Source of the DNA: a virus
IMG/VR virus record: IMGVR_UViG_3300030380_006186
Span: 669 to 23,788 of that record
Direction: 5' to 3' (one strand)
DNA: 23,120 nt
The notes below the pieces were generated by a model that did no database searches, was not told the DNA's origin, and saw only the letters and a program-made list of their open reading frames with translations. The translations under genes were made by a program, and so were the position numbers. Positions 10,401 through 22,471 of the stretch are shown one piece after another (position 1 is the first letter of the stretch; each line of letters starts with the position of its first letter).

Positions 10401-11633
10401 TACTTTTTGATCTTTTTTACCTACTACTCCATCACTATTTCTAGTTCCTGGTCCTCCATAGAAAGTATCTCTATGAACTTCCATAGTTTTGCTCCAAGCA
10501 GGAACACTTGAAATAAAATCAGACCCTCCATAATTTCTTCCAACAAGTAATTCTTTTGTAAAAGAAGAGTCACTTGCATCATTTTTATATTCTAAAGCTA
10601 TTTGAAACTCTGCATATGCTCTGTGTTTATTACCTGCTTCAGAAGTAAAAGATAAACCCCCAGGAAATTCTATATTTATTTTTACTCTATCTACTTCTTC
10701 TTTTGAATTTTGCGAAAAAGAAAAACTATCAGCAGCAATAAAAAAAGTAGACTGACCACTAGAGCTGTCTTGAGATGTATGCCATTTTAAATCAAAGTTA
10801 GGACCAAGAGTATAAGAAGCAGCAGCAGAGCCTCTCGGAGAAGTATGTGCCGGTTGATTTCTTGTTCCCCTATAAAAGGTAGCTCGAGCACTTTCATAGT
10901 TTCTTTTACTAGTACCAGAGGTTAAAGCTGCACTTGTGTGAATAGAGCTGCTAACTCTTGCTGTTGTTGCTGTAGCTGCTCGAGTAACATTTGATGCAAG
11001 AGTTGCTGTAGTAGCAGATCCAATAGCAGTTATTTTTCTAACTTCATCAATTTCAAACGTAGCACCTGCACTAACTGCTTTTGTAATTGGAGGAGATAAT
11101 GTTGCACGATTTCCATTTCCAGAGCCGCTGTTTCCAACAGCTATGAGTATGCCTTTATAATCTTGCCCACTGGAACTAGCTCCGGGTATTCTTACAAGAA
11201 AAGCGACTGGAGAAGAATAGCCATAAACAGGTCCTGTTGCATCATCTTCATCTATGGGCTGAATCATAGAAGACAAAAAGATTGAATTATCTGAAGAAAC
11301 TAAATTAGTTGCTCCAACAGACATTGCTGAAGCAAGAGTAGAGGCTTTTCCTGCTCCCTTTATTTGTATATATCGAGGATTTAATGCTAATCCAGCTGTA
11401 GTTAATCCTGTAAATAAACCTACTCCCGCATTATTGACAGCATTAGTAATACTTGAACCATTAACAGTTACAAGTCCATGCAAAGGTTGATGCTGTTGAA
11501 TTGTATCTGCATCAACTATAGAAGTATCATTTAGATATACACCAGATAAACCTCCAACTACACCTTCAATTTCTCCAGCTGCAACAAGATCATAAATAAT
11601 TGCTCTTTGTTTTTCAAATGTACCTGTTGTCAT
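4500..11633 (-). CDS. J: Tail tip / host specificity protein J-like, enlarged with fibre modules (2377 aa)
   Basis: Its ATG overlaps the stop of the I-like gene (ATGA), with GAGG upstream. The start (IIYDLVAAGEIEGVVGGLSGVYLNDT) is the classic J N-terminus, and residues about 480-800 (AYHIRGKKLKVP, NNPAWIFYDILT, IGLGNFL, the Y..L..LASSFRGMMYWI region, then IRPGDHINV) match the J core that forms the tip hub and closes the tube. A fibronectin-III-like stretch lies near 1000-1110. Residues about 1415-1500 are I.A..I repeats. From about 1510 to 2315 come T4-like fibre modules: LTVSGSTTTINTTNL (about 1770), NLAEGSSNLYFTTARARAAL (about 1870) and TGTWGSWYKIWNSGNDG then LDADLLDGQHGSYYL (about 2145-2185). 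The last 60 residues return to I.A..I repeats and a typical J ending (IRVKIGAL). Lambda J is about 1130 residues, so this is twice as long. Likely acts in receptor recognition. Confidence 0.93.
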   Translation of the reverse strand: MTTGTFEKQRAIIYDLVAAGEIEGVVGGLSGVYLNDTSIVDADTIQQHQPLHGLVTVNGSSITNAVNNAGVGLFTGLTTAGLALNPRYIQIKGAGKASTLASAMSVGATNLVSSDNSIFLSSMIQPIDEDDATGPVYGYSSPVAFLVRIPGASSSGQDYKGILIAVGNSGSGNGNRATLSPPITKAVSAGATFEIDEVRKITAIGSATTATLASNVTRAATATTARVSSSIHTSAALTSGTSKRNYESARATFYRGTRNQPAHTSPRGSAAASYTLGPNFDLKWHTSQDSSSGQSTFFIAADSFSFSQNSKEEVDRVKINIEFPGGLSFTSEAGNKHRAYAEFQIALEYKNDASDSSFTKELLVGRNYGGSDFISSVPAWSKTMEVHRDTFYGGPGTRNSDGVVGKKDQKVSFIKEYDLDLKPFQPLADWRIAVKRLSPDSSADYTQSNHTVIATARVKTVEAIIEEKLSYPLSAYGVVEFSAEDFPSIPKRAYHIRGKKLKVPSNYITREELGSNQAQYTRHKTNGTNTGSYVSWDGTFRGDTSSSHAVNKTKVYTNNPAWIFYDILTDKEIGLGNFLKETDIDVYSLYKIARHCDELVPDGKGGQEPRFACNVYLQRQEDAYKVLKDLASSFRGMMYWIDGQITAVQDIFKEPVYTFTNGNVQDGLFEYTFTGQRARTNQVNVTWSNPDELFKQSVLTIDDTANILAQERIVTKDVVAFGCTSEGQAQRLGKWHMITDTQETELVAFSTGINASFIRPGDHINVQDHYVDSIIASGRVSAASSTTSIVLDRDVPVTGYHHGSGVAADATHILYLVFPDSGTYLNQSEDATINSVLYKRGALILGDASGNPITTAEAAANLVDDSGNPVVTQFSENTRIEKVKIGNTSAGTGNVTLPASLTVYLGLTAAPLSDAIWAIGPAEEHGNADIRQFRVFGIEEEEENSRYKITGGIVVTDKYEELEVGRPVFIPDYSDFSGAATEVPPPTNLSLELVPASSTSVDSADQGVDAIIGWTPPEETITDTNGTARVVPYRFIDRYEITHNLTDGPLEGGFSQVEVGAGTQNIRISNASAGTFQIRIRTISDTGARSVYQTAIRSVTAPPPNFNRITNIPLGGTLTTSVEFDSGSQKVIFEEAVYTYIAPSGFNLAVSSVGNTNGTEQAFNAMANNSTAYLYYDHSTRSSDPWKAVQVHTDTVAIDVGGQPINFNYYKEVGASDNGLATTPGTITASIGSTTITGVSTAFVAHFEPGALIKLTAASAPGTQQSDAEYAEVAEVLSNTSLILKQSLTKNHSAVKAYKQSLKPDFTFDAILGKVEKSNTAAYAAEFYVNSRGRRGPGRWQIPVTSLPTNTAQAQAAWDSNWSDRPGNAVIGDQATFFEGTIANFTGTATWSYDGSIWINQAEIIDGDLIVTGTVTTDKIFANAITADKIAANQISADQIASNAITANLIAANQISTSELAANSVTTNTIAANQITTTQIAAGSVKAESVQANSVVAELLASTTVEACHITTQSLSSLSANLGAITGGTLRSTGANAPPDANNPPSGNEAGAFLDLTGGKFTFGNSSKNITFDGSNMTLNGVEIDATSTVNTTATPSAVVEDNGVQESNSTGIFNFSTGIDVSASGTRSTMTVNQPYIRGSLSGVDNGGLGSFTYNQSTGQISYTGPSDAAVRGLLSVASSGDSDLGDLTYDNTQGQYAFAGPTAATIRGKFSGGNGISYTSGTGAIAVSTGSGIAISGGNVVADSTVIRTTGGQSIAGTTTLANVSISGNLTVSGSTTTINTTNLVIEDNKIVVNSSQTGTPASTVTAGIEVERGSSTNKSFVYAESGVGESGNTSSGWTFGSERVQAGTFFGTFIGDVTGTPSSLAGLTTDNLAEGSSNLYFTTARARAALSAGNGISYNSTSGAISANAGSGISVSGSGIAVSGVTTSMIASGSILVAGETFADNDTQLMTAAAINDRIESFGYTTNTGDITQVAATAGAGLTGTSTTNSGAAQFTFNVGEGTGITVNADDIAIDTSAVVTIANSQTITGNKTFSGSNTFTTGLTIGDSGTGDTLNVKYGQIIGGFGGRTTGGSTDWNHSTNARSGNGHTLLLGSHSNGPSNYGGSSYYHPFSFEYASYDGDGNMTQLAVPYTGAGFSFRSRYTGTWGSWYKIWNSGNDGANSGLDADLLDGQHGSYYLNYNNFSNTPSIPSVGNGTVTINQAGSQIAQFTMNQSGNTTVNLTDNNTVPTVNNTAITFQRNGTTINTVTLNQTNAETVNFSDTNTVTQLRANNTGTYQTGSINLVAGTNVTVGQSGGTFTISASGGNVTAGSGNVIFDVITANEINANHIAANSITARELKISNASSGSAGIYFSTTAMEIHDGTRIRVKIGAL
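6507..6719 (-). repeat. 34-36-residue repeats (IRG/VRG motif) in the J fibre region
   Basis: Three copies of an (I/V)RG.(L/F)S motif have their arginine codons at about 6717, 6615 and 6507, spaced 102 and 108 bases (34 and 36 codons). Between them lie related LTYDNTQGQYAFAGPTAA and FTYNQSTGQISYTGPSDAA segments. This is the YNS..G...YTGP....R..FS repeat of T4-like cyanophage fibres, embedded here in a lambda-type J protein. Confidence 0.75.
7134..7391 (-). repeat. I.A..I short-period repeats in J (residues about 1415-1500)
   Basis: A run of roughly 10-11-residue units such as ITADKIAANQ, ISADQIASNA, ITANLIAANQ, ISTSELAANS, VTTNTIAANQ and ITTTQIAAGS is encoded here. The regular spacing of I/V and A suggests a beta-helical or intertwined trimeric stalk, as in the C-terminal part of many J proteins. 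A short stretch of the same pattern (NEINANHIAANSITAREL) recurs near the C-terminus, at about 4600-4680. Confidence 0.8.
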
Positions 11634-12334
11634 GCTGCCGCCTCAAATTCATTATTATCATTTGGAACTGCAATATCGGGAGAGTTAGGTTTTAAAAAAT
11701 TATTGTACGCCACATAGTATCCTCCGATACCATAAGAAATAACCCCGTGTCCTCTACCTCTTTGATAAGAATTAGTAAAGTCTGGTCTAAAAGATAGACT
11801 CATAGGAGCGCCGCCTACAATTAATTCACCGTAACAAACGGGTACAGGAAGTCCTTGTTGCATATTATTTGTTGGCCCTTGAAATAAATAGCCTTCTTCT
11901 TGTTGTTTATCGGTTTCTGGTCCAGGCGCCATTAATTGAGCAATTCCTGTCATAGTAAGATTTGCTCCTACAGTAAATAGCATCATAGTTAATTTAGGGC
12001 CTAAAAATTGGCCAACACCAGGAATTAAAGATATAGCTATAATTGCTAATCCAGCAATTACTTTACCCATACCACTTTTTGCTCCAGCAGGAATTTCTGT
12101 AATTATTATATCTTCATCATTTAAAGATAGTAAAAGCTCTTCTCCTTCTTCAAGGTAGTCTTTACCTCTTTTTATTGTATAACCAACTCCCGCTTCAGCT
12201 CCTTCAACTAAATGCTGACGAAAGCCAGGAGTTTGACAATCTATAAGCTTAAATATATCAGCAATAGTTGCGCAGTTAGTTTCCCAACTACTACCAAATT
12301 TAGCTATTTCTCCAACTAATTTAACTTTTTGCAT
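11630..12334 (-). CDS. I: Tail assembly protein I-like (234 aa)
   Basis: ATG at 12332-12334 lies inside the end of the K-like gene (14-base overlap), and its stop overlaps the J start (ATGA), which points to translational coupling. The N-terminal 80 residues (MQKVKLVGEIAKFG, then GEELLLSLNDEDIIITEIPAGAKSG) match the ubiquitin-like beta-grasp start of lambda I family proteins. Residues about 88-132 are strongly hydrophobic and glycine-rich (KVIAGLAIIAISLIPGVGQF followed by further apolar stretches), also typical. The C-terminal third (GLPVPVCYGELIVGG.P.S) matches the VPV.YG.L.VGS pattern of the family. In lambda, I is needed to build the tip with J, K and L but is not found in the virion. Its place between K and J is the lambda order. 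Confidence 0.88.
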   Translation of the reverse strand: MQKVKLVGEIAKFGSSWETNCATIADIFKLIDCQTPGFRQHLVEGAEAGVGYTIKRGKDYLEEGEELLLSLNDEDIIITEIPAGAKSGMGKVIAGLAIIAISLIPGVGQFLGPKLTMMLFTVGANLTMTGIAQLMAPGPETDKQQEEGYLFQGPTNNMQQGLPVPVCYGELIVGGAPMSLSFRPDFTNSYQRGRGHGVISYGIGGYYVAYNNFLKPNSPDIAVPNDNNEFEAAA

Positions 12335-13019
12335 ATCTTGCGTACCTTAAAATATTTTTTGCCCAAAAAGGGTACAGATTTTCTCTACATGAAAGTCTAT
12401 TTTCTGCGTGGTGCATAAAAATATCTTCTTCTAAATAAACTCCACAATGGTTTGGAGTATTATTATATATTTTAAAAATAATAATATCTCCTTTCTGCGG
12501 CTCTTCTACCTCTTTAAATCCAAATGTATCAAATAAATCATCAAAATAATTTAATCCTTCCTCCCACCAATCATCTTTAAATTTCATTGTTGGAAGAATA
12601 ATATTGAATTCTTCTTTATAAAAATCTCTTGCTAAACTCCAACAATCATTTTCTCCAAAAATATAATCTCTACCTAGTAATCTTTTTCTCTCTGGTATAT
12701 ATTCTACTTTTTCTCCACTTGGTATGGAGTATACAATATAAGGTACTTTGAAATAATCACTTGCTTTTTTATCTGCATCGCTCAACTTGGGAGAAGCATC
12801 TGGGTGACTATGAACTATTGCGTAAATATCTCCTGTTAAACTTGCTCGTAAATAATCATCACTGTTTATTACAAACTCTTCTTCTGGATTTTCTGCCTCA
12901 TTTGTTGAAGGTATCCAAACTAGCTTTCCTTTTTTATTTTGTAATATTCCACAACCTTCTTCTGGATAAGCGTCTAATAAATGCTTTAAAATTTCTTTAT
13001 CTTCGTCGTTGTACAACAC
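12321..13019 (-). CDS. K: Tail assembly protein K-like: JAB/MPN plus NlpC/P60 domains (232 aa)
   Basis: I place the start at GTG 13017-13019, because GGAGG (13028-13032) lies 8 bases before it; the frame stays open further upstream only as a TTG extension inside the L gene. From this start, the JAB/MPN domain covers about 1-110, with an early EEGCGIL and HSH at 70-72 followed by SDAD, D83 fitting the HxH-x10-D metal motif. The NlpC/P60 domain covers about 115-232, with GENDCWSL (catalytic Cys126) and NHCGVYL (His191). Both active-site sets look intact. The two-domain layout is that of lambda K, thought to act in tip assembly and to have peptidase and murein hydrolase potential. It overlaps L by 23 bases and I by 14. 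Confidence 0.9.
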   Translation of the reverse strand: MLYNDEDKEILKHLLDAYPEEGCGILQNKKGKLVWIPSTNEAENPEEEFVINSDDYLRASLTGDIYAIVHSHPDASPKLSDADKKASDYFKVPYIVYSIPSGEKVEYIPERKRLLGRDYIFGENDCWSLARDFYKEEFNIILPTMKFKDDWWEEGLNYFDDLFDTFGFKEVEEPQKGDIIIFKIYNNTPNHCGVYLEEDIFMHHAENRLSCRENLYPFWAKNILRYARYAKS

Positions 13020-14175: not shown

Positions 14176-14585
14176 TCATAAACCCTTCTAAATACTGCAC
14201 TTAAGCTGTAAAAATCTTCATATTGATAACTTTCTTGAAAGCTATCACAAACTACCCGTATCGATTTTTCATCATCAACAGTGTTGTCAAGAATACCTGT
14301 TGTTTCTTCTGTGGAAGCATGATCTGGAACCGTGAAAACAAAAGCAGTTACTCCTTTTAAGCTTTTTAAAAATCCTGCTATATTTTCTATTTCTCCCCGA
14401 GTACGATTTTTAAAAGAAACATTATATTCTTCTTTTACGCTATTTATTCCGTAAGTTGTTCTTTGCTCATATCCGTCTCCAAAATTTACTCTACGAACTT
14501 GAGGAACAGCTTTACGTGTCATTCCTTTATCAGGAAGAACAGTTAAACTTCCGAAAGCACTTGATGTTGTAAATCCTAAGGCCAT
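14172..14585 (-). CDS. M: Minor tail protein M-like (137 aa)
   Basis: The ATG shares one base with the stop of the tape measure gene (TAATG), and its own stop overlaps the L start (ATGA), so translation is probably coupled across all three. The sequence shows the family pattern: VRRVNFGDGYEQRTTYGINS at about residues 30-49, a YNVSFKNRT strand, then a helix followed by FVFTVPD, and a C-terminal CDSFQ...YEDFYSLSAVFRRV. This matches the phage minor tail protein M family (Phage_min_tail) in length and motifs. In lambda, M works at the tail tip with H, L, K, I and J. No odd features were seen. Confidence 0.9.
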   Translation of the reverse strand: MALGFTTSSAFGSLTVLPDKGMTRKAVPQVRRVNFGDGYEQRTTYGINSVKEEYNVSFKNRTRGEIENIAGFLKSLKGVTAFVFTVPDHASTEETTGILDNTVDDEKSIRVVCDSFQESYQYEDFYSLSAVFRRVYE

Positions 14586-17500
14586 TATCCTGATCCTGCA
14601 CCATAAGGACTTAACATTCCTCCGGGTCTTTTTTGTTTGTGAAGTTCTTGCTGAACGGCTAAAGCTATGGCTTTTCCAACATTACCTTGATCTTCTGTGC
14701 TTGTTTGACTTTGTACAGTTCCATCTGAAGACATAGCAACATTGACTGTTACATTATTTTGTTGATTCTGTCCGCCGCGTCCTGTAAATTCTACAGGTAT
14801 TGATTTTGCTCCTTGTGCTAAAGGAATCACGGCTTCAGTGCCATGTAAAATTGCTCCATAGCCAGCATGTCTACCACGAGCTATACCGCCCTCTCTATAT
14901 CCTCTAGGTTCTGTAAATCCTCCATATCTTGTTATAACACTTCCACCCGACGCTAGTTGAGCATTTATTTGTCCCTGACTCATATTCTGTGCAACAGGAG
15001 CACTTGAGCCTGCGCTAGCTCCAGGAGAAAAAGCCCCCAGAAAAGCACTTGCAATTTGAAGAGCAAGCATTTTAGCGATCATCTGGTTAAGGGCAGCTAC
15101 TACGGATTTTCCAAGATCAAGAAAAGACTGTTTTAAAGTTCCAATTCCTCCTGTTAAATTAGTTATTGAGGACTCAATGCCACTTTGAAAGGCTCCTTGA
15201 ATATTATTCAATCCTGTAGCAACAATTTTTTGCTGCTGTTGAGCACGAATATGTTCCTCTAACAACGCTAGCTGTTGTTGGTTTAAATCTTTTCTTTCAA
15301 ACCCTTTTTTAAGAAGAAATTCTTCCATTTCTCTTTGAATAGGATCTAGCATAAGCAAAGTACTTAAAGATGCATTTTTTTCATTATCTAATCTTAAAGA
15401 ATCTATTGCAATATCTAACGATTTTTCTTGAGTTTTAACCAAAGCATTTGCTTCAGCAACTTGTATTCTTGCTAACTCTATTTTTCGCTCTGCTTGAGCA
15501 ATAGTCATATCATTAAGTTTTAACTCTGCTTTTCTTTTATCTTCAAGAGCATCCTCAAAAGCAAGTTGAGCCTCTGAGGATTTACTTCTTGCTTTATCCA
15601 ATTTATTCTGTCGTACATCTTCTTGAATATTACTAAAAGATCTTCCTATAGAACCTGCTCCTTGTGTTTGGAATTGAGTAAATGCATCTCTTCGTCTTTG
15701 TGTAATAATTTCAGTACTTTGTCGTTTAAATATATCTAACTTTTCTTTTTCAATTTCTAATTCTTGCCTTTTTGCATGATTAATGTCAAATTGAGCATTT
15801 GCATTATTCATAGCTAAAGTTACATTATCATCTGCAATTCTCTTCATTCTTTTTGCATTTTCTAATGCTACTGTATCTTTGCCATTAGCATCTCGTTTAG
15901 CTATATCTAGAATTGCCTGGGCACTTATTTGATTTTGAAGGGCTGTTTCTACTCCATTCATCGCTCTTAGATCAGCATCATGCGTTCTTTCTCTTCTTGT
16001 ATCAAAATCTTGAAGAAGCTTACTTGTTTTTGATATTTCTAAATTATTATCTAAAATATTTTGAGCATGCTCTAATTGTCTAGAAGCAGAGTTTTCAAGA
16101 TCTATTGTAATCAGTCTATTTCTTTCATTTGTATTTTTTATAGCTTCAAAAACTTTTTTCTCTTTTGACATTACATTAACAAGTTCTTTTCTTTCATTTT
16201 GGATATCTACTATTTGTTGAACATAGAATCGATTTGCTTCACCCCCCTCTACAGAGGCTTTTATATTTTCTTCTGCATACTGAGAAAGCTGATTATCAAT
16301 TTCATTTAATCTTCCTTGATTTCGAGAACTATTTTGACTAAAAGTCTCTTGCTGTTGTATGAAAGCAACTGAAGCAGCTTCGCTTAAATTTTTATAAAGA
16401 ACGATTAAGTTTTCTAAAGGAGCTTTTGGTATTCCTTTAACAACATTAGCTATCTCTTGATTTAAAGATTTTTGAGTTTCTCTCATTGATGAAAGTGCTG
16501 CAGTAGCTGAAACTGCATCAGAGCCCAAAGCTTTCATTGCTTCTGTTTGTTCTTCAGTTAAAGGAACGCCTTGTCTTATTGCATCTAACAAAGGCTGAAA
16601 ACGACTATCTAGTTTTACTAAACTTTCTGCACTTCCTTCTGCGGCCGCTTTACTCTGTCTAAATACTTTATTTCTACGATCTTCTGTTTTGGATAAAACA
16701 TCAATTTCTTTTATAAACTTTGGTATATTTGCTTCTTGAACAGCATTTCCTAATTGAGAAACAGATTCATTTAAATCAAGAACATTTTTATATCTATGTG
16801 CAGCAACTTTTTCTAAGTGTTCATTAAGATCTCCTAAACGTTCTGCCATTTCTCCTAATTCTTCGTTTAATTTTTTTACAGCATCACTAACTGGGAAGAA
16901 GGCATCTAACATAACTTTTGCAAGATCAAGAAATATAAAAGCAAGTCCAGCAAAAGAGGCAAATCTAAATGCTTTATCTATTAGTTTAGGAGCCATTGAT
17001 CCCGCTTTTGCAATACCTACAAAAGCCTGTTTCCATGCGAGTCTAGTTTTTGCGGCATAAACTTTTTGTTTTGCTGATAACATTTGCCATTTAGTAGCAA
17101 TCTGTTTTGTAGCTGTAGAGGATGCTTGAACTCTTAACTTATAAGACTGTTGTAAATCTTTTAATTCTTGTTGATTAAATCCTTTAAGCTTTCCTCTACG
17201 AATTCTTCCATACTTATCAAACTCTTTTTGGGCAGCATCTAACACTCGTTTTGCATTTCTTTGTGCTAGTTTACTATCACTAGTGCCCGATAAAAAATCA
17301 ACAGCTCCTCTTCCTCCTTTTTTACCAGTGCCTAATTTACCTATATTACCTGATTCTGCTAATTTACTTGCTTTTCTAAGTGATTTTTCCTGGGAAGCGA
17401 CTAAATTTTCTGATGCTTCTTTTGCTTTATTTACTTCTGCTGTTGCACCGGATAAACCTTTTCTGGCAAGACGAGAAGCTTTCTTAGCAGACTTGCCAAA

Positions 17501-18427
17501 TCCTTCAAAACTAGGAATAATTGATTTTACGATAGGAGCCGCAAAAATAGATAAAGCCCCAGTAAGGGCTAGTGTGTTTTGAGAAAGAAACGCTAAAATA
17601 GGATTTAATACACCAACAATTGCAGATTTTATCGTATTTGATAAATCATCAAAAGATTTCATAAATCTTTGAACAGCTAAAGCTTCTTCATCTATTACTT
17701 GACCTACTGAGCCAAATTTTCTTTCTGCTTCTTCAAGAGTAAAATTAGCAACTGCCTGACTTCTTTCAAATGCATTTAACTGCTCTACATCTTTTCCTAT
17801 ACTGGCAGCGTAGGCTTCTGTAGCAGGTTTTAGTCTAAGTATAATACCAAGTTCATCTAATAGTTCTGGTTCAGCTTTTGTAACACCACGAATTAAACGA
17901 TTAAATGAATCTGTTAAGTCTCTACCTAAAGCAAAAGAAGCATTTTTAGCAGCAGTAGCTAATCCCTCTAGTTGCTCGCCCGATAATCCTGCTGCTGTTC
18001 CTATTGCTGTTGCTTGTGCCGCTTCTTGAAATCTTAATTGTCCATCTGTTGCTTCTTGCAAACTTTTTGTAATTCTATTATATGCTATCCCAGTTACGGC
18101 CCCATACTCTTCTTGAGCAGATATGAGATTACGAACATTTGCTGCTTCTTGTAAAAATTGAAACGCAGCAGTTACAGCAAAAACTTGAGCAGCTAAAACT
18201 GCATAAGCAGGAACTATTCCATTAGTTATTGAAGAAGCAAGATTTGCAAAATTTTTACCGCCGCTATTCGCAGTTTCTATTAAACCTCTCTGACGTTTTG
18301 TGGCACGATCTGTTGACTTTCCAGATTTTTCTAAAGCATCGGACAATTGTTTTTGACTAAGTGCAACTTTTTTGGTTGTGCCTTTATCATCAACAACTAC
18401 TTCAACTTCAATTTTTTTCTTTGCCAT
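14585..18427 (-). CDS. Tape measure protein (1280 aa)
   Basis: ATG at 18425-18427, 2 bases after the stop of the T frame, with only a weak ribosome site, so it is probably coupled to T translation. Features: hydrophobic segments at about 68-95, 266-304 and 486-512; long charged, glutamine-rich coiled-coil-like helix from about 515 to 1090; another apolar stretch near 1120-1145; then the tape-measure C-terminal signature (GGSVITRYGG, YREGGIARG, YGAILHGTEAVIPLAQGAKS), typical of the end that precedes the tip. It fixes tail length while wrapped in G and GT, and is later ejected to help DNA entry. At roughly 0.15 nm per residue, 1280 residues imply a tail near 190 nm (inference). No lysozyme or peptidase motif was recognised within it. 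Confidence 0.95.
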   Translation of the reverse strand: MAKKKIEVEVVVDDKGTTKKVALSQKQLSDALEKSGKSTDRATKRQRGLIETANSGGKNFANLASSITNGIVPAYAVLAAQVFAVTAAFQFLQEAANVRNLISAQEEYGAVTGIAYNRITKSLQEATDGQLRFQEAAQATAIGTAAGLSGEQLEGLATAAKNASFALGRDLTDSFNRLIRGVTKAEPELLDELGIILRLKPATEAYAASIGKDVEQLNAFERSQAVANFTLEEAERKFGSVGQVIDEEALAVQRFMKSFDDLSNTIKSAIVGVLNPILAFLSQNTLALTGALSIFAAPIVKSIIPSFEGFGKSAKKASRLARKGLSGATAEVNKAKEASENLVASQEKSLRKASKLAESGNIGKLGTGKKGGRGAVDFLSGTSDSKLAQRNAKRVLDAAQKEFDKYGRIRRGKLKGFNQQELKDLQQSYKLRVQASSTATKQIATKWQMLSAKQKVYAAKTRLAWKQAFVGIAKAGSMAPKLIDKAFRFASFAGLAFIFLDLAKVMLDAFFPVSDAVKKLNEELGEMAERLGDLNEHLEKVAAHRYKNVLDLNESVSQLGNAVQEANIPKFIKEIDVLSKTEDRRNKVFRQSKAAAEGSAESLVKLDSRFQPLLDAIRQGVPLTEEQTEAMKALGSDAVSATAALSSMRETQKSLNQEIANVVKGIPKAPLENLIVLYKNLSEAASVAFIQQQETFSQNSSRNQGRLNEIDNQLSQYAEENIKASVEGGEANRFYVQQIVDIQNERKELVNVMSKEKKVFEAIKNTNERNRLITIDLENSASRQLEHAQNILDNNLEISKTSKLLQDFDTRRERTHDADLRAMNGVETALQNQISAQAILDIAKRDANGKDTVALENAKRMKRIADDNVTLAMNNANAQFDINHAKRQELEIEKEKLDIFKRQSTEIITQRRRDAFTQFQTQGAGSIGRSFSNIQEDVRQNKLDKARSKSSEAQLAFEDALEDKRKAELKLNDMTIAQAERKIELARIQVAEANALVKTQEKSLDIAIDSLRLDNEKNASLSTLLMLDPIQREMEEFLLKKGFERKDLNQQQLALLEEHIRAQQQQKIVATGLNNIQGAFQSGIESSITNLTGGIGTLKQSFLDLGKSVVAALNQMIAKMLALQIASAFLGAFSPGASAGSSAPVAQNMSQGQINAQLASGGSVITRYGGFTEPRGYREGGIARGRHAGYGAILHGTEAVIPLAQGAKSIPVEFTGRGGQNQQNNVTVNVAMSSDGTVQSQTSTEDQGNVGKAIALAVQQELHKQKRPGGMLSPYGAGSG

Positions 18428-18429
18428 AA

Positions 18430-18843
18430 TTATCTACTTATAGATGCCTTTGCCTTGGCCCTTCTTTCTTCTGCTTTTTGCTTTCTACTAGCTTCTTCTA
18501 TTCTTTCTTTTGCTAGTATATTATCATATAACTTTGCAAAAAATATTGTAGTTTTAATATCTTCAATATCATAAGTATCAAAAATAAAATTTGCAGCGGA
18601 CCAATCCTTTCCTAAATATGTTCCGGAGGCTCCGTCCCAACGATCTGATAAAAGATCATGCACAAAAAATGCCACTTGCACCTCAACAGGAAATGCTGAA
18701 GCATCTAGTGGCATTTTATTCGGATCTGGTTCTTGTCCTAATTGTTCACATAGTGCCAAGTATTTACTTACATCTACTTTATTATGGGACTCTTTTACAT
18801 ATCTTTCAAATAAACGAATTACTTCATTTACTTGACTTGTGTA
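18430..18843 (-). CDS. T: Tail assembly chaperone T-part, expressed as G-T fusion by -1 frameshift
   Basis: This frame has no good start codon: its stop-free stretch opens exactly at the slippery site 18843-18849 (TGA lies just upstream in the same frame) and its first in-frame ATG comes deep in the frame. The only early candidate, TTG at 18757-18759, lacks a ribosome site. Reading from TAC at 18841-18843 gives 137 residues (YTSQVNEVIRLFERYVKE start; basic helical end KQKAEERRAKAKASISR). Fused to G residues 1-136, this makes a protein of about 273 residues, very close to lambda GT (about 279). In lambda, GT is made at a few percent of G and binds both the tape measure and the tail tube protein. 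The stop lies 2 bases before the tape measure ATG. Confidence 0.88.
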   Translation of the reverse strand, partial: YTSQVNEVIRLFERYVKESHNKVDVSKYLALCEQLGQEPDPNKMPLDASAFPVEVQVAFFVHDLLSDRWDGASGTYLGKDWSAANFIFDTYDIEDIKTTIFFAKLYDNILAKERIEEASRKQKAEERRAKAKASISR

Positions 18844-19250
18844 AAATTTTCAAGATCTCCTAAAGTTTCAGTAACCCAAGTATCAAAGTTATTTGCATTT
18901 TTCATTAATAACTCGGCATTTTCTAAAGTATACGGCAATTCATCCTCGGGATCAAGACTTGATATATCTACCAAAAGAAGCTCTTCTAGGTAACGATATT
19001 TTAACCCTTTCCATCCTTTTATGATAGCTTTGCTATATTCTGCTAAAAATTTATCCTCATCTAAATCTTCCTCTGGCTGATGAGTTTTTTTATTCCACTT
19101 TGTACTTATACATCTTTTTCTGAGCTTTATGAGTTCTTCTCTTGCTAAGTAACATAAGTCTACAGAAAATCCTGTGTATCCAGGAAAATCTATTTCAACA
19201 GTCTTACTTGGTGTCATAAGACTGGCTAAAGAAACGGGCGTATCGGTCAT
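18828..19250 (-). CDS. G: Tail assembly chaperone G-like (140 aa)
   Basis: ATG at 19248-19250, preceded by AGAGGA at about 7 bases, and the first gene after the promoter at 19291-19319. At 140 residues it equals the length of lambda G. It shows the chaperone pattern: FPGYTGFSVDLCYLAREEL at about 23-41, KLRKRC, DEDKFLAEYSKAIIKGWKGL, then YTLENAELLMKNANNFDTWV and a final DLENFTQVK. The slippery heptamer overlaps codons 134-136 (GAA AAT TTT), four codons before the stop, so most ribosomes make G and some make G-T. Role (established for lambda): soluble chaperone that coats the tape measure during tube polymerisation and is absent from the virion. Placement between the major tail protein and the tape measure is the standard one. 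Confidence 0.92.
   Translation of the reverse strand: MTDTPVSLASLMTPSKTVEIDFPGYTGFSVDLCYLAREELIKLRKRCISTKWNKKTHQPEEDLDEDKFLAEYSKAIIKGWKGLKYRYLEELLLVDISSLDPEDELPYTLENAELLMKNANNFDTWVTETLGDLENFTQVK
18843..18849 (-). promoter_or_regulatory. Programmed -1 ribosomal frameshift site (A AAT TTT)
   Basis: On the minus strand the G reading frame runs GA A AAT TTT ACA, a canonical X XXY YYZ heptamer with X=A and Y=T. Slipping back one base re-pairs AAT as AAA and TTT as TTT, and translation continues at TAC ACA AGT into the T frame. In that -1 frame the codon before AAA is TGA, so the T frame opens precisely here, and the G frame stops five codons later. No strong downstream hairpin or upstream ribosome-like site was obvious by eye. 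Confidence 0.9.
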
Positions 19251-19290
19251 GTATAAATCCTCTGTATAAAGTGGTAATTCGATAGTGTAT

Positions 19291-19319
19291 ATTCTACTGC
19301 ACTATAGGAGAAATGTCAA
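19291..19319 (-). promoter_or_regulatory. Sigma-70-type promoter for the tail assembly unit
   Basis: On the minus strand: -35 TTGACA (19314-19319), a 17-base spacer, -10 TAGAAT (19291-19296). The expected start is near 19284, with a leader of about 34 bases to the G start. The region upstream of and including the -35 (AATATTTCTTGACA) matches the fibre promoter (AATAATTCTTGACT) at 12 of 14 bases. It sits just downstream of the terminator after the major tail protein, so the tail assembly genes restart transcription here. Confidence 0.87.
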
Positions 19320-19343
19320 GAAATATTTTTGGAAGGTAAAAGT

Positions 19344-19369
19344 AAAAAAGGGGCCGAAGCCCCTTTTTT
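19344..19369 (-). terminator. Rho-independent terminator after the major tail protein gene
   Basis: On the minus strand an 11-base stem (six A, GGGGC pairing with GCCCC, six U) closes on a UUCG tetraloop with the stabilising C-G closing pair. The six U at 19344-19349 serve as the release tract. It begins 12 bases after the stop of the major tail protein gene. The symmetric A/U arms could also act in the opposite direction, but no + strand gene needs it. Confidence 0.93.
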
Positions 19370-19381
19370 ATTGCGTATTTA

Positions 19382-20524
19382 TTATACGTCTGGAGTTACT
19401 CCTCGATACTTGAGGGTGGTTTCATTTGTACCACCAATTGTTGATGGCAATGCTTGGAAAGTAGTTTCCAACGCAATAACATCCTCAATATTATGAGAAG
19501 GAATCTCAAAGTGTGCTGTAGGCATCGTAAACTTCAAGAAAGGAGAGCTTGCTCCACCTATTGCAAATACTGTTTGAAATGAATTTACAGTTTTTGCTTT
19601 TGCAGCAGCGCTAGTCATATCTGAGAAAAAGTCTGTTGAAGTACCGACGTTACTACTAGAATCAAGTCCTAAATAACAACTAAAGTTACCACTTATAGAT
19701 CTAGGTCCTGTTACATGTCCTATAGGAGTATTTACTGATCCTATTGTTTCTGGAGTAAGGAAAGTTATATTGTTAGATATTGTTATATTTCCACCAATAA
19801 GTGTTAAGTTATATACACCACTTCCTGCTCCTGGAAAAGTTGAAGTATCTGCTGCAGTAATTGCAAGAGAAGTAAGCCTATTTCTAATGTAATTATTTGT
19901 AGCATTAATCGCTTCATAAACAGTCTTTGTAGGCTTAGAATCCGCTGTAAGAGTACTTCCAAACCCAGACCAGTTAATTGTAGCAATACCTTCAATGTCA
20001 AAATCAATACTTGCTTCATTTATGACAGCGCCAGCAATCTTATAAACGGTTGGGTTTGATCCTCCATCGTCTAATGAAAAGAATACATCTGCAGTTCCCA
20101 ACTGAGATTTATTTGATTGATCAAAATCAATATCAAGGTCTGCGCCTGCACCACTTCCATGAGTAGTTGTATTTGTAAACGCATTACTTGAATAGGTAGC
20201 TGGGCCTGCCATAAGTGCCCAAAGTACTTCTTCTACTGCGTGTTGCTTTGCGCTGCCGTCTGCTGCACCTGCTCCAGAGCCTGCGGATAAAAATGGACGT
20301 GCATAAGTTGCAAATGAAAATTCAACGGGTGCTAATGAATCATTAAAAACTTTTCGTCCACGCTTACTTACTCCGGTGGAGCTTTCTGCTTCACTAAGAG
20401 TTACCTCTGTCGAGTTATTTCCTTGTGAAAAACTGAATCCATCTAGTACAGGAATCTCCCATATTGCTGATCCAATCTTAACGTACATTTTAGTATCGCG
20501 ACTAAAATATAATGTATCTGCCAT
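19382..20524 (-). CDS. Major tail (tube) protein (380 aa)
   Basis: ATG at 20522-20524 with a strong AGGAG (20531-20535) 6 bases upstream, as expected for a highly made protein. The N-terminus (DTKMYVKIGSAIWEIPVLDG, then FSFSQGNNSTEVTLSEAE and SKRGRKVFNDSLAPVEFSF) matches a tail tube family common in marine siphophages. The middle is rich in S, T, G and beta-prone residues, and it ends with an ETTLKYRGVTPDV strand. No cysteine-based or catalytic motif stands out. It follows the tail terminator gene, precedes the G/GT chaperone pair and has its own strong terminator, all typical of the tube gene. The call rests on context plus recalled family pattern; at 380 residues it is longer than lambda V (246), so an extra surface domain is likely. 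Confidence 0.87.
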   Translation of the reverse strand: MADTLYFSRDTKMYVKIGSAIWEIPVLDGFSFSQGNNSTEVTLSEAESSTGVSKRGRKVFNDSLAPVEFSFATYARPFLSAGSGAGAADGSAKQHAVEEVLWALMAGPATYSSNAFTNTTTHGSGAGADLDIDFDQSNKSQLGTADVFFSLDDGGSNPTVYKIAGAVINEASIDFDIEGIATINWSGFGSTLTADSKPTKTVYEAINATNNYIRNRLTSLAITAADTSTFPGAGSGVYNLTLIGGNITISNNITFLTPETIGSVNTPIGHVTGPRSISGNFSCYLGLDSSSNVGTSTDFFSDMTSAAAKAKTVNSFQTVFAIGGASSPFLKFTMPTAHFEIPSHNIEDVIALETTFQALPSTIGGTNETTLKYRGVTPDV

Positions 20525-21041: not shown

Positions 21042-22471
21042 TAAACTCTCCTAGTATATAATCTACCTGTAACCAACTGTGCTGCAATTTCTCTTATTGA
21101 TGCATCAATAAGAGTTCTAGGATCTCTATCTACGCTTGCAAATCTACTACCGCTTGAAGCTTCGAATACTCCATATGGCTGTCTTTGATAAGTATACCCT
21201 ATACTTGGAAATCCTTGAGGAGTTCTTGAAGCATCTACAGCTCTTACTGAAGAAGCAAAAGTACCGGTTCGATTTTCTAATCTAGGAGCTCCCATATTTT
21301 TTAAAACTGTTTGAGGTAGTTTTGAATTTATTAGAACCATTAAGTTTATAGGAGACTCTCTATTTTCTTCTTTTTGAGCGCCTGGTTTTATTCGTCCTGC
21401 TTTACTTTTATCTGTAAAGCCTCTACCTTTTGTAGCCTTCATTTTACCTGCTTCTATTGAAACTGGTTCTTTTTTTCTTGGCTTTGGTTTTTTCTGTTTA
21501 AAGTTCTTTTTACCTGGCATTTTTCCAAATCTATGTAAAACGCCTTCCTCTATATTTTCCAAGTAGTCTGAAGACATAGATGTAAACATTATACCATCTT
21601 TATCTTCGCCAATTAATTGAAGTATTGCTTTTTCTAAATCTTTATTTAAATCATCAAACATAGAGAGATCTTCCCCTCTATTATCGCCGGCTGATTCAAA
21701 TTTTATCTCTACAACTTCTTTACCACCATTTGTTTTTGCAACAGATTTCTTTCTTGCAATTAAAGCTACGCTTCCTTCAAGCTGCTTTAAAAAAGCTGTA
21801 AGAGCTGGAGTATTTGCTCTTGAACTTATATCAAGCAAAGTATCTTGAACCATAGCATTTCTTTGTCTTGCTACTGCCGATTCTCCAACGTGACCAAGAT
21901 CTAAAAAATTATTTTTCCCAAACTCAGCATCTACCATTTTTCCTGTAAATACCATTTGTTTAGTTTCTTTATCCCTTGTCATCTCCTTCATAAGACGACC
22001 TTCTGATTTTAATTCTCGATTAAGATCGTCTATAAAATCTCTTTGAGCATCTTGTTTAAATTTTTTAAATCTTGTAAATACATCTTCACTGCTAGTTTCA
22101 TCTGTACCTGTACTTGTTGCAAAAACAAAACTAAAAGTTCTAAATCCTTTTCCGCCTTTTATAGGAGAATCATCTGTTACTTGATATTTTTTCATCGTCT
22201 TTTTTGCAGCGCGAACTTCTGCTACAAATTTATCAAACATATCTGCAACTCCTTGATTCACTACTTTTTTCATGCCTTCAGGAATTTCTCTTACATTTTT
22301 ATATCCAGCAACATTTATTAAGGATCTATAAATCTGTTGCCGGAGTTCTGACTCTTTAAAATTTATATAATGTGCTTTTTTATTTGAAACTAATTTTCTA
22401 AACTCGGAACTGTCCTTTTTTAGTCTCTCTAAAAGTTGATTTAGCTCTTTTTTTAACTGTCTTTTTGACAT
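21041..22471 (-). CDS. Neck / tail completion structural protein (476 aa)
   Basis: The ATG shares one base with the stop of the connector gene (TAATG). Residues 1-345 are highly charged, lysine-rich and mostly helical, with no recognised domain. A basic linker lies near 327-375 (KKNFKQKKPKPRKKEP). The C-terminal 95 residues (LINSKLPQTVLKNMG, NRTGTFASSVRAVD, PYGVFEASSGSRFASVDRDP, then TLIDASIREIAAQLV) are a distinct conserved-looking domain. Its TGTFASS and late A...IA helix recall gp10-like tail completion proteins of the HK97 type, though much longer overall. Place between connector and tail terminator fits a neck or head-closure protein. The specific family is not certain; a fused N-terminal domain is possible. 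Confidence 0.7.
   Translation of the reverse strand: MSKRQLKKELNQLLERLKKDSSEFRKLVSNKKAHYINFKESELRQQIYRSLINVAGYKNVREIPEGMKKVVNQGVADMFDKFVAEVRAAKKTMKKYQVTDDSPIKGGKGFRTFSFVFATSTGTDETSSEDVFTRFKKFKQDAQRDFIDDLNRELKSEGRLMKEMTRDKETKQMVFTGKMVDAEFGKNNFLDLGHVGESAVARQRNAMVQDTLLDISSRANTPALTAFLKQLEGSVALIARKKSVAKTNGGKEVVEIKFESAGDNRGEDLSMFDDLNKDLEKAILQLIGEDKDGIMFTSMSSDYLENIEEGVLHRFGKMPGKKNFKQKKPKPRKKEPVSIEAGKMKATKGRGFTDKSKAGRIKPGAQKEENRESPINLMVLINSKLPQTVLKNMGAPRLENRTGTFASSVRAVDASRTPQGFPSIGYTYQRQPYGVFEASSGSRFASVDRDPRTLIDASIREIAAQLVTGRLYTRRV

Follow-up and report, generated by a model that had tools for sequence, protein, structure and literature searches.

Conservation and a covarying hairpin point to −1 frameshifting in a viral tail chaperone gene pair whose T5-like homologues appear to shift in the +1 direction

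Two small overlapping open reading frames, G and T, lying between the major tail and tape measure genes of a virus, very probably yield two tail assembly chaperones from one mRNA through a programmed −1 ribosomal frameshift. We analysed a window of 23,120 nucleotides from a virus record of 23,788 bases. Its minus strand carries a tail module in the order head-tail connector, tail terminator, major tail protein, G, T and tape measure protein, and the same module encodes minor tail proteins and a long central fibre. A preliminary description of this DNA had read G and T as a G/GT chaperone pair joined by frameshifting, and that reading is now supported by gene order, chaperone family membership, conservation of the heptamer, constraint on the slip codons, a covarying hairpin and the absence of a usable start for T; its coordinates and lengths were all correct. 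The surroundings of the pair are as follows.

19382..20524, minus strand: major tail protein (V equivalent), 380 aa, matching PHROG 3575 (9e-46).
19343..19370, minus strand: strong intrinsic-terminator-like hairpin between the major tail gene and G, symmetric and also readable on the plus strand.
19291..19319, minus strand: sigma-70-like promoter, TTGACA-17-TAGAAT, just upstream of G, by consensus match only (11/12).
19258..19263, minus strand: ribosome-binding-site-like AGAGGA, 7 nt before the G ATG, by direct reading.
14585..18427, minus strand: tape measure protein (H equivalent), 1280 aa, matching PHROG 3779 (3.5e-39).

The succession of a terminator-like hairpin and a promoter suggests that G, T and the tape measure gene may form a separate transcription unit; the promoter upstream of G is near consensus, and the total of promoter-like sites in the window was not above that in shuffled sequences. 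The window also encodes a 476-aa protein (21044-22471, minus strand) with a long N-terminal extension, the C-terminal part of which weakly resembles T5 tail completion protein p143 (PF25747, E 0.003; PHROG 3725, E 0.011).

The join itself reads GAT CTT GAA AAT TTT ACA CAA GTC AAG TAA on the minus strand, and its parts are these.

18828..19250, minus strand: G, predicted tail assembly chaperone and zero-frame product, 140 aa, by PHROG 313 and predicted fold.
18850..18852, minus strand: TGA closing the T frame directly 5' of the slip site.
18843..18849, minus strand: slippery heptamer A_AAT_TTT (GAA AAT TTT ACA).
18430..18849, minus strand: T, −1-frame open reading frame, 139 aa from stop to stop, by PHROG 3914.
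18830-18828, minus strand: G stop codon TAA.

As the preliminary description had it, the heptamer lies in register at 18849-18843, with four codons between its TTT and the G stop, and the T frame is shut by the TGA at 18852-18850 immediately before it. The predicted GT fusion comes to 136 + 137 = 273 aa with the crossing at ENF/YTSQ, the T residues from YTSQ on being the part that would join G, in agreement with the earlier estimate of about 273 residues. The remark that an ordinary gene call would begin T at the TTG at 18759 and lose 28 residues also held, the first ATG, GTG or TTG of the frame standing 28 codons past the slip site.

Conservation of the heptamer in homologues, proposed earlier as a check on frameshifting, was assessed by alignment. 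An in-frame canonical XXXYYYZ heptamer occurs at the G/T overlap in 340/340 of the loci fetched with T in the −1 frame (325 AAATTTT, 15 GGGAAAC), counts that are not independent, given shared ancestry and overlap between some of the contigs. GGGAAAC is the heptamer of a nested clade (L161-L183), in which G_GGA_AAC, one codon upstream, stands in place of A_AAT_TTT and the T frame is unchanged. Loci selected through a different DNA element in G gave the same picture, with an in-frame heptamer and a −1 T frame in 115/115. Among 93 non-redundant homologues (mutual identity <90%), both slip codons were invariant (AAT 93/93, TTT 93/93), and the codon before AAT was GAA in all 83 homologues with E there, compared with usage elsewhere in the same genes of 64% for AAT, 83% for TTT and 70% for GAA (AAC 36%, TTC 17%, GAG 30%). 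Other conserved Phe and Glu codons near the slip site do vary, among them a conserved Phe 13 codons upstream of AAT (77 TTT, 15 TTC). As a measure of chance occurrence, in-frame XXXYYYZ was found at 19 of 6,696 codons (0.28%) elsewhere in the G genes of the 93 homologues, and AAATTTT at 1 of 6,696. In the papers covered by our library search, no mention of a phage tail frameshift at AAATTTT/AAAUUUU was found.

Directly downstream of the heptamer we identified a putative stimulatory hairpin, HP1, by folding and covariation.

18806..18835, minus strand: HP1, putative stimulatory hairpin, 13 bp, GTAA loop, containing the G stop codon.

The statement in the preliminary description that no stimulatory structure was obvious is thus wrong. 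HP1 in the window folds at −12.5 kcal/mol (z = −4.1, with 0/200 shuffles as good), and over 93 loci the mean z was −2.25, with stems of 9-13 bp. Paired cells amounted to 65.9% in register versus 25-44% when the alignment was slid, and compensatory double changes, counted on a tree of upstream G sequence alone, numbered 37 in register versus 0-15 in the slid registers. The spacer between heptamer and hairpin is 7 nt in the window and 8 nt in most homologues, within the distance of about 5-9 nt expected of stimulated −1 frameshift cassettes; a spacing of 7-8 nt is that of known −1 stimulators. HP1 was not consistently present in the GGGAAAC clade or the T5-like clade, and is therefore not universal.

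Upstream of the heptamer, an SD-like stretch is suggestive of a second frameshift element.

18856..18861, minus strand: SD-like AGGAGA (AGGTGA in most homologues), core 7-9 nt before the heptamer.

AGGTGA/AGGAGA corresponds to the SD segment that base-pairs with 16S rRNA, and anti-SD pairing upstream of the heptamer exceeded that in synonymous shuffles, a test that ignores shared ancestry and so makes the evidence suggestive only. The Gly codon in the stretch is GGT in 54/68 versus 24% elsewhere in the same genes, again with ancestry uncontrolled. A second stretch of G, codons −44 to −38, gives a larger anti-SD z for reasons unrelated to the slip site, and we therefore do not take the pairing test as proof. 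Internal SD-like elements have been described at 9-14 nt upstream (PMC5009743), compared with 7-9 nt here.

Alternative origins of the T product were weighed against this evidence. T might be a separate protein made from its own start (the TTG at 18759 or the KMPL-motif ATG), perhaps coupled to the end of G, as the start chosen by a mechanical ORF call and the downstream starts of T in most T5-like records would have it. Across homologues, the first ATG, GTG or TTG of the T frame is usually an ATG 41-43 codons past the slip site, and homologues with an independent T start were looked for and not found, an SD-like 4-mer preceding this first start codon in only 3/93. Conservation of the T frame reaches all the way to the slip site, and in the stretch from the G stop to the first start codon, third positions change most often (734/491/918 at positions 1/2/3, then 667/296/1274), so that this stretch evolves like T-frame coding sequence. 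T is without a credible start of its own, as judged from these sequences, and a separate T would leave the invariant AAT TTT codons unexplained; we consider it very improbable. That the split reflects gene decay or an error in sequencing or assembly could be entertained only in that the window is a fragment of an IMG/VR virus record, and the idea is refuted by the identical split and heptamer in hundreds of contigs from different samples, which leaves it with a negligible probability.

Two further alternatives concern the slip itself and its stimulators. RNA polymerase might slip on the A4T4 run to give mRNAs with altered base number, so that the fusion would arise in transcription; the slip site is indeed made of A and T runs, a type of sequence on which this alternative is known from bacteria. 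Four A and four T make a short track for a slipping polymerase, however, and the exact phase of the heptamer relative to the codons, the fixed 7-8 nt distance to the hairpin and the replacement by GGGAAAC all fit a ribosome better, making a transcriptional origin slightly less probable still than an independent start for T. HP1 and the SD-like stretch might also be kept for another reason, such as mRNA stability or re-initiation, with the heptamer alone driving the frameshift. Inclusion of the G stop codon in HP1 and the lack of a consistent hairpin at this place in the GGGAAAC relatives would fit such a role, whereas the spacing expected of −1 stimulators and the confinement of HP1 to the AAATTTT clade argue against it, and we regard it as unlikely, if the least improbable of these alternatives.

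Under programmed −1 ribosomal frameshifting, most ribosomes would read G through to its stop and release the 140-aa protein. A minority, with Asn-tRNA (P site) and Phe-tRNA (A site) positioned at AAT TTT, would be slowed by the hairpin 7-8 nt downstream, and base-pairing between AGGTGA/AGGAGA and the 16S rRNA 3' end probably pulls them back. Moving back by one base, the tRNAs would pair again on AAA TTT, and translation would continue in the T frame to give the 273-aa GT (...LENF/YTSQ...). By analogy with lambda, G would coat the tape measure protein, the T part of GT would recruit the tail tube protein, and a low GT:G ratio would be what counts. We infer the slippage, its efficiency, the roles of the two stimulators and the chaperone function from the conserved features described above, the reading-frame anatomy, the HP1 covariation and the missing T start being observed directly.

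Two other conserved elements lie inside T and G. HP2, a strong conserved hairpin in T (18666-18717, minus strand; AAAATGCCACT...AGTGGCATTTTTT), is located about 125-177 nt past the heptamer, where most ribosomes would not translate. Its mean z over 92 homologues was −5.1, its outer stem was 93% paired in register versus 12-56% when slid, and the Val codon in its 3' arm was GTG in 72/72 versus 9% elsewhere. With a T run at its end, HP2 resembles an intrinsic terminator or an attenuator. Within G, a 27-nt stretch (18966-18992, minus strand; TACCTAGAAGAGCTTCTTTTGGTAGAT, encoding YLEELLLVD) is nearly free of synonymous change in the large marine clade to which the window belongs, unlike the codons on either side. 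Its 24-nt core is exact in >100 viral contigs, always in frame in G, and was absent from the 84,980 bacterial and archaeal genomes scanned. A hairpin can be drawn for the stretch (UACC U AGAAG AGCUU CUUUU GGUA), which might be an operator, an RNA element or a recombination site.

Family assignments place G and T with the T5-like tape measure chaperones. G matches PHROG 313 (5e-12) and T matches PHROG 3914 (1e-17), both families of tail assembly chaperones, and homology to the T5-like tape measure chaperone family (PHROG 313 / 3914) was found for both proteins. Their closest named relatives are T5-like phages (tblastn of G against T5-like phiAPCEc03, E 4e-18). We dropped the hhalign score of the G profile against T5 in favour of that independent tblastn, the score being circular because the profile includes a T5 contig (L133). 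The fold of G, predicted from 52 sequences (pLDDT 80, against a poor 59 from 8 sequences), resembles those of T5-like 'tape measure chaperones' (Foldseek E 4e-15 to 1.5e-9). Weaker matches were to tail assembly chaperones from other phages, Mu and Loki among them. Searches of Pfam and NCBIfam gave no match for G or T, a sequence search of solved structures gave one weak match (TMH4C4, E 0.001) and chance matches, and Foldseek of G against the PDB gave only a weak top match (YqbN, E 0.49).

Similarity to lambda, which the preliminary description had noted, held for arrangement and not for sequence. The window shares with lambda the order V-G-T-H, a 140-aa G, a fusion of about 270-280 aa, a −1-frame T overlapping the end of G by a few codons and a canonical X_XXY_YYZ a few codons before the G stop. 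It differs from lambda, whose G/GT slip heptamer is G_GGA_AAG, in its heptamer A_AAT_TTT, its covarying downstream hairpin and its SD-like element. Profile comparison with the lambda proteins detected no sequence similarity for either G or T (hhalign E 0.13 and 0.52, probability <1%), so we do not class the window G as a lambda G orthologue and limit the comparison to how the genes are arranged and what they probably do; among named phages the T5-like ones are closest, and their T is in the +1 frame. Caulobacter phages also have a chaperone −1 frameshift, at GGGAAAC in Colossus and AAAAAAC in phiCbK (PMC3556154). The Colossus heptamer is that of one sub-clade of the window's relatives as well; in the fold comparison Colossus gave only a weak match (E 0.014).

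The T5-like relatives differ from the window in the direction of the frame change. T lies in the +1 frame relative to G, and TTT_CGN occupies the homologous Phe in 47/47 (41 TTTCGT, 6 TTTCGA), with no X_XXY_YYZ at this codon. The join-site Phe codon in T5-like G was TTT in 23/23 versus 56% in the rest of these genes, and TTTCG was found in frame nowhere else in T5-like G genes. This Phe, invariant in the G alignment, is the join point common to the window and the T5-like pair, and the window, though its G and T are homologous to that pair, is −1 with A_AAT_TTT and not +1 with TTT_CGN. In T5 itself (AY543070, L129) the homologues are the following.

12055-12459, minus strand: T5.143, G homologue.
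11625-11993, minus strand: T5.142, T homologue, frame +1 to G.

The T5 join reads GAT ACT TTT CGT AGC; both genes are annotated as hypothetical proteins, and the T start is placed well after the join. UUU_CGU is the +1 site of influenza PA-X (PMC3498833), UUU_Ynn has been described as prone to +1 shifting in bacteria (PMC5009743), and TTT-CGC was proposed, without experiment, for the tail chaperone of HF1-like haloviruses (PMC7230728). The UUU_CGN of PA-X and the HF1-like haloviruses is the motif of the T5-like relatives and not of the window, which shifts −1. T5 and Sugarland have been said to lack a predicted frameshift signal (PMC6256483). The record of the T5-like phage Shivani holds a joined chaperone CDS of 277 aa over an 832-nt span, which implies a −2-type join and means that a GT-type fusion was itself annotated before. 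We disfavour a −2 shift in T5-like phages, as re-pairing would be poor at AAC TTT and GGG TTT, and for that reason +1 on UUU C would be preferred in all members seen. The record of Aeromonas phage AhSzw-1 (NC_047950) is largely unannotated, and many stop codons break G, T and their neighbours, possibly through base-calling errors in the deposited sequence.

The three kinds of slip site were placed on a tree of the joined proteins (49 rows). All +1 members fall on one side of one branch (support 100/99), and the tree needs two changes in all, a switch between the +1 and −1 frames and, inside the −1 group, an exchange between AAATTTT and GGGAAAC; the direction of the +1/−1 change depends on where the root lies. 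We consider it likely from these comparisons that the tail chaperone of one lineage switched frameshift direction at the same Phe, with +1 at UUU_CGN in T5-like phages, −1 at A_AAU_UUU with a hairpin in the marine clade and G_GGA_AAC in a sub-clade, the fusion remaining homologous throughout.

Tail-chaperone frameshifting is present in most long-tailed phages, and its seeming lack in T5 would be explained if T is read in the +1 and not the −1 frame, with a known +1-prone motif at the join. At the level of annotation, a mechanical gene call loses the first 28 post-slip residues of T in the window phage, and gene calls miss the GT protein wholly there and in hundreds of related contigs. The locus is of the known G/GT sort, and its interest for specialists lies in the change of direction within one homologous family and in the +1 reading of T5. 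Three kinds of slip site at one homologous position would amount to a natural experiment in which the site and direction change and the protein ratio is kept.
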